Assembly: GCA_900555955.1 (NCBI GenBank)
Contig: USNA01000068.1
Span: 1-6,023 of the forward strand
Length of the DNA stretch: 6,023 bases
Reading direction: 5' to 3'
From: an uncultured Collinsella sp.
Lineage (GTDB): Bacteria > Actinomycetota > Coriobacteriia > Coriobacteriales > Coriobacteriaceae
The position numbers were made by a program, and so were the translations under genes. Below, piece after piece: positions 520-5,978 of the stretch; the first letter of the stretch is position 1, and every line of letters begins with the position of its first letter. A model generated the notes under the pieces. That model was not told where the DNA came from and ran no database searches. It saw only the letters and a list, made by a program, of their open reading frames with translations.

Positions 520-898
520 GTCTCAATCTGTAACAGTTACGGGGCAAAACCGGGTCTACACGTTACGGATCGAGACATTCAGTCAGCCCCTTGGCTAACA
601 TCTCAATCTGTAACATCTACAGGCCGAATCTTCGTCTAGGTGTTACAGATCGAGACAAACGGTCAACACGGCCCACAAACGTCTCAATCTGTAACAGTTA
701 CCAAGTAAATCGACCCGTAACTGTTACAGATCAAGACAAACCAATCCGTCTGAAGACAACATCTCGATCTGTAACAGTTGCGGGGCAAAACCAGCCCCAG
801 ATGTTACAGATTGAGACAGTTGAGTTGTCGGTCGAGGAACAATCTCAATCTATAACAACTAGACCCCGTATCCCCCGCCAGATGTTACAGATCGAGAC
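520..898. repeat. Tandem array of five ~57-bp imperfect inverted repeats, 80-81 bp period
   Basis: Five units lie at 520-576, 601-656, 681-737, 761-817 and 842-898. Each has a left arm close to TCTCAATCTGTAACA and a right arm close to TGTTACAGATCGAGA, its reverse complement. The 14-mer TCTCRATCTGTAAC thus occurs ten times in alternating orientation, with only one to three differences per copy. Between the arms are about 15-27 variable bases that in some units extend the stem: unit 3 continues GTTAC/GTAAC, and unit 4 has GGGGC/GCCCC. Units are separated by 23-24 bp of unrelated sequence. Unit starts fall at 520, 600, 681, 761 and 842, so the period is nearly constant although the loops and separators are not conserved. 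This fits a row of RNA hairpins or paired protein-binding sites. No ORF, transposase or cas gene is associated. The array lies between the terminator of the acetyltransferase gene and the start of the helicase. Confidence 0.9.
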
Positions 899-930
899 AA
901 ACGTGCCGAACACCAAACCCGACAGGCAAC

Positions 931-1019: not shown

Positions 1020-1568
1020 CTACTCTGCGTCCGGGTCCTTAAAGTTCTTGGGATCCAAGACCATGCAGGTGTAGGTAATGTCGTGGTCATCGTCGGGGAT
1101 GGGCTCAAACCCGTTCTTACCAAAGAAGTCGATGAGCAGATGTGCGAGCTTAATCGGATCCGCATCAGCATCGTCAAAGAGATATTCGCTCAGATCCAGG
1201 AATGTAGGCTGCTGTTCGCCCTCGCTCTCCCAGTATCCCAACAGGGCGTCGTGCACCAGGCGCGCGCCATAGCCGTTACCGCGGTAGTCGGGGTCAACAT
1301 ACACATGGCTCAAAAACGTCGACGTGTACTCGTTGAGCGGGTGATCCGTAACGGCATCCGGCAGGTCGGGGTCATCTGCACCGCCCGTTACACAAAAACC
1401 GACCAGCTCATCATCGGCAAAGACGCCCCAGAGGTAACAGTTCTCCTCGTCCTCGTCCTCAACATAGTCCGCCCACGCGTCATAGACCTCGTAGCCCGAC
1501 TGCTCGTCCAGATCGACCATATCGTCGACGTCGTCGGGACCCAAAGCCCTTACTTCAACTTCAGCCAT
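1020..1568 (-). CDS. GNAT-family N-acetyltransferase
   Basis: This 182-residue cytoplasmic protein fits the single-domain GNAT fold, which moves an acetyl group from acetyl-CoA to an amine. The core appears as beta strands LWGVFADDELVGFCV (about 46-60) and FLSHVYVDPDYRGNGYGARLV (85-105). The latter is motif A, with the pyrophosphate-binding loop R96-G-N-G-Y-G101 and the preceding V-x-V-D-P turn. The C-terminal part (FFGKNGFEPI) matches the usual final helix-strand segment. The protein is strikingly acidic, rich in Asp and Glu at 12-42 and near the end. The substrate cannot be inferred. The start at 1568 is chosen because AAGGA (1580-1576) sits 7 nt upstream; an in-frame ATG at 1604 lies inside the proposed -10 hexamer and cannot be in the mRNA. 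The gene has its own promoter and terminator, so it appears monocistronic. Confidence 0.85.
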   Translation of the reverse strand: MAEVEVRALGPDDVDDMVDLDEQSGYEVYDAWADYVEDEDEENCYLWGVFADDELVGFCVTGGADDPDLPDAVTDHPLNEYTSTFLSHVYVDPDYRGNGYGARLVHDALLGYWESEGEQQPTFLDLSEYLFDDADADPIKLAHLLIDFFGKNGFEPIPDDDHDITYTCMVLDPKNFKDPDAE

Positions 1569-1603: not shown

Positions 1604-1639
1604 AGCATACGGCGCTGTCCCAACACTCTGTTGCGCAAC
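1604..1639 (-). promoter_or_regulatory. Promoter of the acetyltransferase: palindrome plus -10
   Basis: On the minus strand, GTTGCGCAAC (1639-1630, part of the 12-bp palindrome TGTTGCGCAACA at 1629-1640) is followed by 20 bp and then TATGCT (1609-1604), a plausible -10. There is no TTGACA-like -35. Transcription would begin near 1597, giving a leader of about 30 nt. A second, degenerate copy, GTTGCGCCAA (1647-1656), lies with its centre exactly 17 bp further upstream; it also forms a 7-bp stem, GCGCAAC/GTTGCGC (1633-1639 with 1647-1653), with the main site. The same layout occurs at three other places in the window. Confidence 0.6.
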
Positions 1640-1664
1640 ATCGGCCGTTGCGCCAATACCGTCG

Positions 1665-2210
1665 CTAGCGACGACGACGCCTCAGGGCAATGCATGCAAC
1701 GACAATCGCCAGCAGCACCAAGCCCTGGAAATTGATGCGGCTAATAGCGAAGCCCGAAGGAACAATAAAACTGTCGTAGAACATGTCGAGCATGCCGATA
1801 AACACCAGAAACGCAATGAAGATCCAGAACGCGCGACTCCTTAAAATGGGAGTAAACATGCCGAGCACCGAACCGCCCGAGGAAGAGCCCTGATAGCCAA
1901 TCAAATCAAACGGCTCATCCTTTTCCACCTCGTCGACATCGCTCGAAGCGCTCGAAGACTCGGACTCCAAATCGCGACGATTCGTCCAATACCCGGGCAC
2001 ATGGTCGCGCTCACCAAGGTACTCACCGTTTTTGACCACCGGCTCAAACAACATGGCACTCGAAAGCTGCTCGAGCTCCTCGCGAATCAACTGGTCAGCA
2101 CGAGCGTCATGAGGCTCCTCGAGCTCGCACTCAAGCTCGTACATATGCTCCATGACTCGCTCGTAGTCCTCTTCAGACATATCGTCATCGTAATAGGAGT
2201 TCCCGCTCAT
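1665..2210 (-). CDS. Hypothetical membrane protein, two C-terminal helices
   Basis: This protein of 181 residues belongs to no family I recognise. Residues 1-50 are very acidic and probably helical (DDDMSEEDYERVMEHMYELE), residues 54-80 may form a small folded segment (FEPVVKNGEYLGERDHVPGYW), and 82-91 is a Ser-rich linker. Two hydrophobic helices follow at about 125-145 (FWIFIAFLVFIGMLDMF) and 161-176 (FQGLVLLAIVVACIAL), then five terminal arginines. By the positive-inside rule the Arg tail and the long acidic N-terminus should both be cytoplasmic, with a short outer loop between the helices. No signal peptide is seen. The start at 2210 is backed by GAGGGA (2222-2217) 6 nt upstream; M11 is a weaker alternative. 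It lies 96 bp upstream of the acetyltransferase gene on the same strand, but each gene has its own promoter. A role as a small membrane anchor or scaffold is only a guess. Confidence 0.75.
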   Translation of the reverse strand: MSGNSYYDDDMSEEDYERVMEHMYELECELEEPHDARADQLIREELEQLSSAMLFEPVVKNGEYLGERDHVPGYWTNRRDLESESSSASSDVDEVEKDEPFDLIGYQGSSSGGSVLGMFTPILRSRAFWIFIAFLVFIGMLDMFYDSFIVPSGFAISRINFQGLVLLAIVVACIALRRRRR

Positions 2211-2254
2211 CGTTCATCCCTCATTCAAGAACCGAATCCCTTTTGGACAACTCA

Positions 2255-2290
2255 AGTGTAGAAATCCATACCGAGCAGACGTTGCGCAAC
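2255..2290 (-). promoter_or_regulatory. Promoter of the membrane-protein gene: palindrome plus -10
   Basis: Read on the minus strand, GTTGCGCAAC (2290-2281) is followed by exactly 20 bp and TACACT (2260-2255), a likely -10. No -35 consensus is present. Transcription would start near 2248, about 38 nt before the ATG at 2210. From the last two bases of the -10 onward the sequence reads CTTGAGTTGTCC, 11 of 12 identical to CTTGGGTTGTCC at the same position in the acetyltransferase promoter, so the two transcripts should have nearly the same 5' end. Confidence 0.6.
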
Positions 2291-2370
2291 ATTGCCGAGA
2301 ACGAGACGGATCCGCTCTCACAACGCCCCGGGACAGACCGTTCCGCATTGTAATTTGCGCACTCGCGGAT

Positions 2371-2406
2371 GTTGCGCAACGTTCTTGCCCATCGGGGCGG
2401 TAGCGT
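2371..2406 (+). promoter_or_regulatory. Promoter of the three-repeat gene: palindrome plus -10
   Basis: GTTGCGCAAC (2371-2380) is followed by exactly 20 bp and TAGCGT (2401-2406). The hexamer is a weak -10 on its own, keeping only T1, A2 and T6, the most conserved positions; the call rests on the identical spacing at the other three sites. Transcription would start near 2413, giving a leader of about 64 nt. A degenerate TTTGCGCACT (2354-2363) lies upstream with its centre 17 bp from that of the main palindrome, the same offset as at the acetyltransferase promoter. Confidence 0.5.
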
Positions 2407-2476
2407 TCAAGTTAGCAAAGCCACGAGCCCTAAAACCCGGGATCGTTGGCTTCCACCGCATACGAAAGAAGGAACG

Positions 2477-4582
2477 ATGGACGAGATTTTTGAGCATCTG
2501 CTTCAAGATACCGACCGAGGGATCTCGATCAACCAGATTGTCAATCGCATCGTGTTTCCCAACCACGATATCTGCATGCAAGCCAAAGCTGCCCTGGAGC
2601 GAGACTATGGCGAGTTCTGCTTTGCTGCCGTGATCCCCGATTACGAGGACTTCCAGCACATGGATCCGACCGACGCCACCAATGCCGCCCTGGAAACCTG
2701 CGGGTCCGACGGCGAAGAGGTCACCAACGTCGTCTGGGGCTACAACTCGCTCCAGTACGAATACAACGGCATTCCCTCGCTGGAGGTTGCCAAGACTATC
2801 TCCAAGATGATCGGCGTCCCCGTCTACTACGAGTACACCGATGCCGATGAGCTCGCTGCCGGCGCCGTGATCGCCGATGCGCAGGGCAACAGTGTCTCGT
2901 TTGCCAACGTGGTCGACAAGAGCTGCTGGGTGTATTTCCCGGAGGGGTTCGACGGTGCCACCGACACCCTGTTCCGCTGCGGCATGGGAACCATGTCCAT
3001 GCCCGACGGAAGCCAAAAGTACTTTGAGGACACCACCGACCCCATCATGCGTTCGTATGCGCAGCGCGGAAACGTGTCCCTGTACTTCGACTTTCTCAAG
3101 GACCAGTTTGGCGCCCAAGAGGAGCCCCAGCCGGCGCCCTCGCGCAAAAAATCGTCTTCTGCGGCTAGCAAACGCAAAAAGAAGTCGACCAAGACGCAGG
3201 AGGTCGCAACCGCCACCATGGACACATCGGACGTTGACGTGCTCTTTAGCCATCTAATCGAAGAGACAGGCGGTCAGATCCAGCCCCAAAGGGTCATCAA
3301 CCGCATCGTCTTTCCCGGACACAATGCTTGCATGCAGGTAAAGGAGACCCTGGAACAGGAATTTGGCGGCTTTTCGCTCGCCACGCTGATACCCGCAATC
3401 TCCGACCTTGGCGATTTGAGCCAGCCGCAAAACGCCGCCATGTGCATCCATATCTGTGGCGCCCTAGGCGGACAGACATTCAACGAGATGTGGGGCTACA
3501 ACTCGCTTCAATACGAATACGACGGCATCCCGCTGCTGCGAGCTGCGAAGGCGCTCGCCGGCCTGCTCGGGGCGCCCGTTTATTACGAGTACGTAGTGAC
3601 CGACGGCTACAAGGCCGGAGCATGGCTAGCCGATCCCGATGACGACGACGTCTCGTTTGCGGCAAGCCTCACTAAAAGCCAGTGGACGTTCTTCCCCGAC
3701 AACAGCCAGTACCGAGATGCCACGGCAGTTCGTTGCGGCGTGGCGACCGTCACGCTTTCCGTGACCCAAAATGGCGTGCCCCAGGACCGCGAGGTCTCGT
3801 TTGCGGACACGTTCAATCCCATCATGCAAAAGCTGGCAACCCGCGGGACCGTCTCCATGTATCTCGACCTGATCAATGCAAACTACAGCTCGTTTGCAGA
3901 CCCATCGGACGATGACAACGAAGACGAGGATGAAGAGCCCCAGGCAGAGTCCGATGCCCAGGCGTCGGGCAACGTCTACATGTCCCAGGCCATGGGCGCG
4001 ATGACGTTTCGCATCGTCTTTCCCAATCATGACTGCTGCGAGTATATCCGCAATGATCTCGAAAAGTGCTTTGGCGGGTTCTCGCTCCAGGCGATTTGCG
4101 GCACACCCGACGGTACGTTTGACTCACCCGATGAAGTCCTGTCCACCATGGCAGGCCACGGAATCCCCGATGATGCAACCGATGTCGAATGGGGCTATAA
4201 CTCCGTGCGCTATCGCGTGGCGCACTCCGTGCCCAACGCCATCGTTCTCGAGACGTTGGTCCAGCACTACAACATTCCGCTGTACGTCGAGTATTTCGAT
4301 GAGCTTAAACGCGCGACCGGCGCTGCCATTACGATCCCCGACATGGCAAACCCGACCGCATTCATCCCCGGCACACTCGGATGCAAAGAGCAGATGTACT
4401 TTGACCGCGGCAGCGACAACGAAGGCTACGTTGCACTTCGATGCGGCTATTGCCAGGCAGTCTCCGATGATGGCAAAACGCGCATTTCCTTTGTCGACGA
4501 CCCATCGCAGTCGGTCATGGCGGAAATGGCAGAAGAAGCATCGGTCGGAGTCTACGTTAGGCTGCTTAAAAAATTCGATCTT
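2477..4582 (+). repeat. Three tandem domain-coding repeats inside the large gene
   Basis: Repeat-coding segments are about 2477-3109, 3236-3886 and 3998-4582. Copies 1 and 2 are also similar as DNA around WGYNSLQYEY (from 2735 and 3491). Copy 3 is the most divergent: it has lost the N-terminal helix and the W-x-x-F-P motif of copies 1 and 2 (W151 and W403), with QMYFDRG in its place. This pattern suggests an older duplication producing copy 3 and a younger one producing copies 1 and 2. Confidence 0.85.
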
Positions 4583-5866
4583 GAGCAAGTTCTCCCCGCT
4601 GGATATCAGAAACCGACTTCTCGTCCCGCCGCAAGCTCTAAAAAGAACACCTCGACCTCCTCGGCAGAAAAATCAAAAATCAGCCTGTGGATGAACCCCA
4701 TTGCAGAGAAGCATGTCTGGAACTCCCTCGATGCCTACGGTCAAAAGCAGGGCAAGCAAAATGACATGAACATGTTCTTTTTGGAGCCGCTCTATCGCGG
4801 CGGCGACCAGATCCGCGACCCATTTGGATTTGCCACAGGCCGCAAACCTATGCCGGCTTATGCAAGCCACCAGGCGCACCGCAAGGTTATCGACGCCGCC
4901 CTTACTACCGACATAGAAGTCAGCGCGCTTGTCGCGGGGCTTCTCGGCCAAGACCTGTTGACATCCGAAGAGCTCAACGCGCTGCACCGTGACATCGAGC
5001 TCAAGGCCCAAGGTATAAGCGCCATCGCCACCGGAAGAGGTGCCGCACTCGAGAGCCGCTGCGACTCGGTTTGCTACCTTATTGCAAAGCTCCGGAGCCA
5101 TGACGGCGACAATAGCCATCGCTTTATGATGTGGATGGCGGACACCGACCAAGCCGTACGCGTAAAGTTCTACGGCGAGGCGCCGGCAATCGGCACGCCC
5201 TTTACGTGCCGCTTTAGCGTAGTGGAAAATGACGTCATTACGCACTGGATGCCCGTCGAGGGCGAGAAGGGCTTCTCTCGCTATAAGCAGATTCCCGAGG
5301 GAGGACGCATCGACGTCTCCACGGCAAAGAGCGACTCTGCCGCCATGAGCGCCCTGCGCAAGGCCAACGCGATGTTCCTTAAGACGTGCGGACTCAAGCA
5401 GACCGCACCGTCCAAAACGCACATGACCCCGGAGCAGTCGCAACGATTTAGCGAGCTGCGAGAGAAACTGGGCCGTAAAACGGGCTATGCTCTTACGGTG
5501 CTCTTCTCGCGCTGCGTACTCTGCAGCGCCGAAGCGGACCGATTCCTCGAGCTCATGGAGCACGCCGCCGCCGCGCACGATCGTGGAGAGGTGATCGACG
5601 TCGACGATACCGAGGCCGTAGAGCACAAGGCCGTTTACATGGTTGGCCCGATCTCTACCGAGGATGGTACTTGTCAGCTCTACAACCCCAACACCGTCAA
5701 CTTTGAGGACTTTAGGTTCCAGCCCAACCTGCTCGAAGACTTCCATACCGACCTGCCCCGTGCCGGCAGCTTTATCAACATTGCAACGAGCGTCGTTGAG
5801 TCGGACGTCATCGCCGCTTGGGCGGGCTACAACCCGGGCAACGCCCAGCGCTCGGCGCGCTACTAG
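2477..5866 (+). CDS. Large three-repeat protein of unknown function
   Basis: The 1129-residue product looks cytoplasmic, with no signal peptide or membrane helix. Three tandem homologous domains lie at about 1-211, 254-470 and 508-702. Each carries RIVFP near its start (24-28, 276-280, 512-516), WGYNS (87-91, 339-343, 572-576), a Y-x-E-Y strand (117-120, 369-372, 603-606) and RCG (167-169, 419-421, 655-657). Copies 1 and 2 are in exact register, offset by 252 residues, and share an N-terminal helix that copy 3 lacks. Linkers are basic (223-239, RKK and KRKKK), acidic (477-492, DDDNEDEDEE) and Ser/Thr/Lys-rich (711-735). Residues 736-1129 are an unrecognised mixed alpha/beta region with a CVLC pair at 1013-1016. 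The N-R-I-x-F opening, FxxxxxIP and WGYNS faintly recall the Api92-like ferredoxin-fold family (DUF1281, WGTKW motif); this is a weak inference. The start is set by AAGGA (2469-2473); an upstream ATG at 2369 lies inside the promoter. No function is assigned. Confidence 0.9.
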   Translation: MDEIFEHLLQDTDRGISINQIVNRIVFPNHDICMQAKAALERDYGEFCFAAVIPDYEDFQHMDPTDATNAALETCGSDGEEVTNVVWGYNSLQYEYNGIPSLEVAKTISKMIGVPVYYEYTDADELAAGAVIADAQGNSVSFANVVDKSCWVYFPEGFDGATDTLFRCGMGTMSMPDGSQKYFEDTTDPIMRSYAQRGNVSLYFDFLKDQFGAQEEPQPAPSRKKSSSAASKRKKKSTKTQEVATATMDTSDVDVLFSHLIEETGGQIQPQRVINRIVFPGHNACMQVKETLEQEFGGFSLATLIPAISDLGDLSQPQNAAMCIHICGALGGQTFNEMWGYNSLQYEYDGIPLLRAAKALAGLLGAPVYYEYVVTDGYKAGAWLADPDDDDVSFAASLTKSQWTFFPDNSQYRDATAVRCGVATVTLSVTQNGVPQDREVSFADTFNPIMQKLATRGTVSMYLDLINANYSSFADPSDDDNEDEDEEPQAESDAQASGNVYMSQAMGAMTFRIVFPNHDCCEYIRNDLEKCFGGFSLQAICGTPDGTFDSPDEVLSTMAGHGIPDDATDVEWGYNSVRYRVAHSVPNAIVLETLVQHYNIPLYVEYFDELKRATGAAITIPDMANPTAFIPGTLGCKEQMYFDRGSDNEGYVALRCGYCQAVSDDGKTRISFVDDPSQSVMAEMAEEASVGVYVRLLKKFDLEQVLPAGYQKPTSRPAASSKKNTSTSSAEKSKISLWMNPIAEKHVWNSLDAYGQKQGKQNDMNMFFLEPLYRGGDQIRDPFGFATGRKPMPAYASHQAHRKVIDAALTTDIEVSALVAGLLGQDLLTSEELNALHRDIELKAQGISAIATGRGAALESRCDSVCYLIAKLRSHDGDNSHRFMMWMADTDQAVRVKFYGEAPAIGTPFTCRFSVVENDVITHWMPVEGEKGFSRYKQIPEGGRIDVSTAKSDSAAMSALRKANAMFLKTCGLKQTAPSKTHMTPEQSQRFSELREKLGRKTGYALTVLFSRCVLCSAEADRFLELMEHAAAAHDRGEVIDVDDTEAVEHKAVYMVGPISTEDGTCQLYNPNTVNFEDFRFQPNLLEDFHTDLPRAGSFINIATSVVESDVIAAWAGYNPGNAQRSARY

Positions 5867-5895
5867 AGAGCGATTGGCACGGCCAAGCCATGTAT

Positions 5896-5954
5896 CTGTT
5901 GCGCGGCATCGGCCCTGGACGTCGAACCGCGCCGTCCACGATGTTGCGCAACAG
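5896..5954 (+). other. Strong RNA hairpin after the large gene
   Basis: CTGTTGCGCGGCATCG (5896-5911) pairs with CGATGTTGCGCAACAG (5939-5954) over 16 positions. The two non-Watson-Crick positions are GG opposite TT, which are G-U wobbles in plus-strand RNA but mismatches in minus-strand RNA. Inside, TGGACG (5916-5921) pairs with CGTCCA (5933-5938), leaving an 11-nt loop. It begins 30 nt after the stop codon and suits a 3' end structure of the large transcript. No T-run follows, so it is not a standard intrinsic terminator. Its right arm is the palindrome of the next promoter. Confidence 0.55.
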
Positions 5955-5978
5955 AATGCAGCGCAGGCGGCCTAGTAT
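5943..5978 (+). promoter_or_regulatory. Outward promoter for the gene beyond the right edge
   Basis: GTTGCGCAAC (5943-5952, within TGTTGCGCAACA at 5942-5953) is followed by exactly 20 bp and TAGTAT (5973-5978), a good -10. No -35 consensus is present. Transcription would begin near 5985. A ribosome binding site about 30 nt further on, at the window edge, supports a gene starting just outside. This is the fourth copy of the same architecture. Confidence 0.6.

Follow-up and report, generated by a model that had tools for sequence, protein, structure and literature searches.

A ten-base palindrome at a fixed 20-bp distance from a TAnnnT hexamer marks a predicted promoter class in Collinsella and other Coriobacteriales

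The perfect 10-bp palindrome GTTGCGCAAC occurs four times in a 6,023-nucleotide (nt) stretch of DNA from an uncultured Collinsella sp. (assembly GCA_900555955.1, contig USNA01000068.1, analyzed at its full length and called the window here), and each copy is followed after exactly 20 bp (spacing N20) by a hexamer TAnnnT. A first-pass annotation had proposed that these sites are promoters of one class in which the 20-bp distance is rigid, and this proposal turned out to be well supported outside the window: in a Collinsella set, in genomes of the order Coriobacteriales, and in a pool of 177 sequence groups. The sequence patterns make it likely that a single, undescribed activator binds GTTGCGCAAC as a dimer and that it would supply RNA polymerase carrying sigma-A with a substitute for the -35 contact.

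Four palindromes at one distance from a hexamer

The exact palindrome was found four times in the window with 0.01 occurrences expected, and none of 200 shuffled sequences reached four; the complete arrangement GTTGCGCAAC-N20-TAnnnT likewise gave four matches, and none of the 200 shuffles contained even one. The coordinates of the four palindromes and the four hexamers and the 20-bp spacing were all verified in the window sequence. The nearest genome found to the window is G001, a Collinsella metagenome-assembled genome (MAG), and conservation in its locus L001 is given with each feature.

1630..1639, minus strand: palindrome 1, GTTGCGCAAC, predicted activator site (exact word match)
1604..1609, minus strand: predicted -10 TATGCT, N20 from palindrome 1 (motif match)
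2281..2290, minus strand: palindrome 2 (exact match; conserved in L001)
2255..2260, minus strand: predicted -10 TACACT, N20 from palindrome 2 (motif match; conserved in L001)
2371..2380, plus strand: palindrome 3, divergent from palindrome 2 (exact match; conserved in L001)
2401..2406, plus strand: predicted -10 TAGCGT, N20 from palindrome 3 (motif match; conserved in L001)
5943..5952, plus strand: palindrome 4 (exact match; conserved in L001)
5973..5978, plus strand: predicted -10 TAGTAT, N20 from palindrome 4 (motif match)

The four spacers had been described as unrelated, which holds for five of the six pairs (4 to 6 of 20 bases in common) but not for sites 1 and 4, which share 11 of 20. 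TATGCT is also found at N20 before a related GNAT gene in genome G003 (L018/L053), where the spacer differs. Promoters 2 and 3 form a divergent pair (window 2255-2406) with 80 bp between their palindromes, and both are retained in L001. A near-copy of the palindrome with two mismatches, GTTGCGCGGC, is located at window 5898-5907, 45 bp (start to start) ahead of palindrome 4.

The 20-bp spacing is enriched over its neighbors

Copies of the palindrome were counted in two collections: every one of the 43 Collinsella genomes of the genus set has one or more, as do 168 of 197 genomes from the order Coriobacteriales. Site sequences were then drawn as a sample favoring palindrome-rich genomes, which were chosen by palindrome count and not by hexamer; the spacing sets comprised 129 Collinsella sites (window included), 90 sites from genomes outside the genus set, and a final pool of 224 sites, which fell into 177 groups with less than 45% flank identity between groups. 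TAnnnT was present at N20 in 38 of the 177 groups, whereas the 39 other spacings had a mean of 2.95 groups and a maximum of 8 (N21). When the groups containing the window or the L001 contig were left out, N20 still accounted for 34 of 173 groups, against a mean of 2.90 elsewhere (Poisson, 1e-24). The annotation had predicted an excess over the immediately neighboring spacings, and indeed, N18, N19, N21, and N22 occurred in only 3, 3, 8, and 5 of these groups. No correction for the choice of spacing was applied because 20 bp had been named beforehand.

Counted as single sites, 56 of 224 had TAnnnT at N20, always in one orientation and never in both. The excess was observed both among the Collinsella sites (36 of 129, with 0 to 13 at each of the remaining spacings from 0 to 30) and outside the genus set (18 of 90 sites; 0 to 4 at other spacings), where G107, G132, G174, G193, and G200 contributed eight of the 18. 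As a control, 29 permuted half-site palindromes with 40 sites in the same DNA were examined, and no N20 peak was found (N20, 1; N18, 3). Allowing NAnnnT at N20 raised the excess by about 24 groups.

The hexamer resembles a -10 element and the usual -35 is missing

The peak depends on particular bases of the hexamer. With the first T excluded ([^T]A...T), the N20 peak stayed, with 37 groups versus 12.8 and 20 at the largest other spacing; with the A excluded (T[^A]...T) or the last T excluded (TA...[^T]), no N20 peak was observed (14 groups versus 12.5 and 11 versus 8.8, respectively). The A at position 2 and the last T of a -10 element are the bases flipped out by sigma-70-type factors. In addition, open reading frames (ORFs) of at least 100 amino acids (aa) started within 200 nt downstream of 82 of 95 oriented sites with NAnnnT at N20; for the remaining orientations, the figure was 217 of 336 (Fisher, 2.7e-5), and spurious ORFs in this GC-rich DNA inflate both. 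The assignment of the hexamer as a -10, already made in the annotation, is thus supported by the dependence on A and last T and by the downstream ORF starts, and the hexamer appears to behave as a sigma-A -10.

No TTGACA-like -35 was found at 16 to 18 bp at these sites, and a scan of the window for consensus promoters returned one, away from the palindrome sites. The usual place of the -35 is occupied by the end of the palindrome and the opening bases of the spacer; replacement of the -35 box by the palindrome, as had been claimed, follows from the sequence. The conserved element derived from 40 groups is WT-GTTGCGCAAC-R, with T preceding the palindrome in 88%, A or T before that T in 95%, and R following in 87%, and the upstream flank is better conserved than the gene-side flank. 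The extended consensus put forward earlier was borne out for the T, the A/T, and the R, but the final K of its "RK" is weak (59% K, 38% A). At several G119 sites, the element is longer and approaches AATTT-GTTGCGCAAC-AAATT.

An N20 peak at the perfect palindrome and none at sampled imperfect ones

G001 contains 15 copies of exact GTTGCGCAAC versus 1 of the reversed control word, whereas forms with one mismatch were not enriched (80 versus 95 for the control, after subtraction of the exact copies from totals of 95 and 96). TAnnnT was found at N20 in 8 of 29 oriented exact contexts of this genome but in 0 of 70 one-mismatch contexts, and NAnnnT in 9 of 29 versus 1 of 70; the one-mismatch contexts come from 35 of the 80 places, sampled in 34 stretches. 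At other loci, too, imperfect palindromes gave no N20 peak (2 of 59 oriented contexts with one mismatch, 2 of 570 with two).

Kinase, FHA, and zinc-ribbon genes near the palindromes

The downstream gene set includes zinc-ribbon proteins, Hanks-type kinases, and proteins with a secreted look. Among 52 downstream proteins, hand-picked from the ORFs with some orthologues and not a random sample, we found Zn_Ribbon_1 in 23, protein kinase in 6, CAP in 2, SLH in 1, and WXG100 in 1. G003 has four palindromes within 20 kb and a fifth about 15 kb further; genes in this region code for kinases, zinc-ribbon proteins, an FHA protein, GAP1-N2/GAP1-M and double-GTPase domains, GrpE, and two Hsp70 proteins, of which one has a VWA domain. 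The theme of kinase, FHA, and zinc ribbon recurs in G119 and G107, and in L010, a kinase gene is preceded by two palindromes whose starts are 35 bp apart.

FHA family genes are present in 59 of the 197 order genomes; in a sample of the phylum, they were found in 6 of 198 genomes, all six already within the order set. Genomes with the FHA family have an average of 5.58 palindromes versus 2.58 in those without (p 5.7e-11; 197 genomes), and the control word shows 3.76 versus 2.84 (p 0.035). In genomes with all palindromes listed, 18 of 36 FHA places (1.28 expected) and 23 of 42 kinase places (1.58 expected) lie no more than 5 kb from a palindrome; both counts contain orthologues, and their entries are not independent.

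A palindrome pair in G042 (L088) precedes a WXG100 gene (E 1.3e-19) and an FHA-FtsK ATPase gene (FtsK_SpoIIIE, FHA), with GATACT as the hexamer at N20, and a near-identical ATPase gene in G036 has a palindrome pair about 400 to 500 bp upstream. No palindrome lies near the distant homologues of this ATPase found in G154 and G160, and therefore, the link to type VII secretion is limited.

A proposed activator in place of the -35 contact and its alternatives

With the -10 assumed at -12 to -7, the palindrome would span -42 to -33, with its center at about -37.5. We infer that a protein contacting RNA polymerase is bound there: a dimer on the palindrome would abut sigma region 4 or the alpha subunits, recruit the polymerase, and switch the zinc-ribbon, kinase, and other target genes on together. 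Many sites have kinase and FHA genes beside them, and the encoded proteins might feed a phosphorylation signal to this regulator or be its outputs. A dimeric activator is favored because it accounts at once for the symmetry of the site, its fixed distance from the hexamer, and the lack of a usual -35.

If the palindrome were the operator of a repressor overlapping the polymerase footprint, the distance would be set by blocking of the -35 region. Strict palindromes are common for repressors, and the paired copies before the kinase gene of L010 and the WXG100 gene of L088 would suit one. A repressor, however, tolerates many positions, yet a single spacing dominates the 177 groups, and the N20 promoters, lacking a usual -35, would be expected to be weak unaided. 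We regard a repressor as unlikely.

Slightly less likely still is an alternative sigma factor with GTTGCGCAAC as its -35 element. The rigid spacing, the lack of any other -35, and the lack of N20 TAnnnT at the one-mismatch palindromes sampled from G001 are what such a factor would give. But the left half of the palindrome (about -42 to -38) would be out of reach of sigma, upstream of the bases that it reads, and is nevertheless part of the exact word, the upstream flank is better conserved than the gene-side flank, and the hexamer acts like a sigma-A -10. The right half alone would not serve as the -35 of an extracytoplasmic function (ECF) sigma factor either, since 20 bp is too long for the ECF spacing of 16 to 17 bp.

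An activator is preferred, and the Rrf2 protein encoded beside a conserved palindrome in one Collinsella clade is an improbable candidate for it. The palindrome lies 202 to 204 nt upstream of a 161-aa Rrf2 gene in eight loci of this clade (L016, L019, L028, L035, L052, L058, L061, and L119; doubled in L019 of G004), the protein scores above the cut-off of the Rrf2 model TIGR00738 (98.4 versus 73.3), and inspection of the recurring neighbors by eye brought no other clear DNA-binding family to notice. On the other hand, Rrf2 homologues are present in 160 of the 197 order genomes and are not specific, the G107 and G119 contigs that hold the Rrf2 gene have no palindrome among those listed, and in seven of the eight loci (not L035), TATACT at N20 is directed away from the Rrf2 gene. 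The link is adjacency in one clade and a lead only. An Rfam scan of L016, L052, and L058 returned only an opposite-strand tRNA at the Rrf2-linked site.

Two other candidates were rejected. In G200, an XRE-like helix-turn-helix gene (HTH_26, E 0.0017, under the curated cut-off) stands directly before a Ser/Thr kinase gene (L196:3195-5722); its relatives are found in 132 of 197 genomes, without specificity. The FHA protein (L164:13079-14059) was considered as a DNA-binding regulator, but no DNA-binding fold was recognized: its AlphaFold2 model (pLDDT 90.8) matched nearly exclusively FHA-domain entries among the best 50 of 280 Foldseek matches, and the N-terminal helical part alone (pLDDT 89.5) had no Foldseek match at E <=0.001.

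An origin of the sites by chance or from a single dispersed repeat is scarcely credible and was refuted at the count level: some sites are indeed orthologous with common flanks, but the 177 groups have unrelated flanks with no similarity beyond the motif, the permuted palindromes have no N20 peak, and the prediction preceded the independent data.

Several observations weigh against the proposed activator and its regulon. TAnnnT is absent at N20 in 168 of the 224 palindromes, and among the 18 palindromes outside the genus set that do have it, 10 belong to a single genome, G119. No TAnnnT at N20 was found at the sampled sites of G068 (5 of 8), G154, and G160, nor at any of the six palindromes of G167, which all lie in one 10-kb patch. 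Off-theme products among the 52 downstream proteins (NifH, BrxA, GGDEF, and an ABC transporter part) may be chance, and the FHA gene of G001:C28, which adjoins a palindrome, has no N20 hexamer in its direction. The promoter geometry rests on sequence and on the assumed -10 position, and no regulator of the palindrome was identified among the Rrf2, XRE, and FHA candidates. The G167 patch (L187, G167:C1:125493-135421) holds the whole palindrome set of that genome, which had been picked for this clustering.

A wider role is a more tentative proposal. An activator that accepts only perfect GTTGCGCAAC and docks polymerase at 20 bp from a -35-less promoter could be the master switch of a Coriobacteriales kinase-FHA-zinc-ribbon surface program, which in some species would include type VII secretion; this is possible, with the balance somewhat against it.

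Genes and other features of the window

Three genes lie behind promoters 1 to 3.

1020..1568, minus strand: GNAT acetyltransferase gene, downstream of promoter 1 (Pfam Acetyltransf_1, E 1.7e-10)
1665..2210, minus strand: gene for a 181-aa protein, downstream of promoter 2 (open reading frame)
2477..5866, plus strand: gene for a 1129-aa protein, downstream of promoter 3 (open reading frame)

All four palindromes had been placed between genes, and this depends on the start codons of two targets: the open frame of the GNAT gene extends back to TTG 1604, and that of the 1129-aa protein to ATG 2369, touching palindrome 3. The starts chosen here, ATG 1568 and ATG 2477, leave the sites intergenic and are preceded by Shine-Dalgarno-like AAGGA/GAAGGA (read by eye). 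The target of promoter 4 would start beyond the window; in L001, a 423-aa reading frame begins 80 nt downstream of this -10. Neither the 181-aa nor the 1129-aa protein matched Pfam or NCBIfam, and the sole relative found for the latter is a 98% identical protein in L001 of the uncultured G001. The 1129-aa protein (window 2477-5866) has internal repeats by eye, with RIVFPxH and WGYNS blocks.

At window 520-903, a 62-nt element is present five times, start to start 80 to 81, with arms TCTCAATCTGTAACA / TGTTACAGATCGAGA, giving five imperfect hairpins in tandem. An Rfam search of the window and eight loci returned three tRNA matches and nothing else.

Comparison with known systems

Literature searches for the exact words GTTGCGCAAC, TGTTGCGCAACA, TTGTTGCGCAA, TTGCGCAACAA, and TTGCGCAA gave no description of the motif in titles and abstract starts, and no Collinsella promoter motif appeared by title among the best literature matches, most subscription papers lying outside the coverage. 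The IolQ footprint, as it appears in an excerpt of PMC5504672, has a different shape from the GTTGCGCAAC motif, and the sequence matches in PMC5715377 and PMC12016517 are, in the matching excerpts, primers. Olsenella uli has a type VII secretion system d (T7SSd), according to parts of PMC11217815, whose main text contains the word "promoter" 0 times; the WXG100 gene and FHA-FtsK ATPase gene behind the palindrome pair of G042 (L088) resemble this T7SSd as described in those parts.

No comparable regulon turned up in the literature searched for Coriobacteriales. These are common gut bacteria, and one exact word at one distance would predict membership of genes in the regulon, including those for the 1129-aa and 181-aa proteins unmatched in Pfam and NCBIfam.

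Class II activators of the CRP/FNR type bind as dimers to a palindrome by or over the -35, centered at -41.5, at a fixed distance from a sigma-A -10 and with a weak or absent -35. The predicted promoters share the palindrome by the -35, the fixed distance to a sigma-A-like -10, and the weak or absent -35; they differ in the center, at about -37.5 (-10 assumed at -12 to -7) rather than -41.5, in half-sites that abut without a spacer, and in that single changes are apparently not tolerated at N20. With PhoB, CtrA, Spo0A, and WhiB7 (the last together with sigma-A), the regulator site also substitutes for the -35, as the palindrome occupies the -35 place here, but these regulators bind direct repeats or other sequences and not a 10-bp perfect palindrome. 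MerR family regulators bind between a real -35 and the -10 in a rigid geometry of about 20 bp; the rigid distance is similar, but GTTGCGCAAC lies upstream of the 20-bp spacer and no usual -35 is present. Unlike an ECF sigma promoter, with an AAC-type -35 alone and a -10 that is not TAnnnT, the sites conserve the upstream T and the left half and have TAnnnT as the hexamer. Activators in place of the -35 are thus already known, whereas the element, the strictness at N20, the center at about -37.5, and the regulon appear to be new, and the system would offer a compact case of replacement of the -35 contact by an activator with almost no sequence tolerance.

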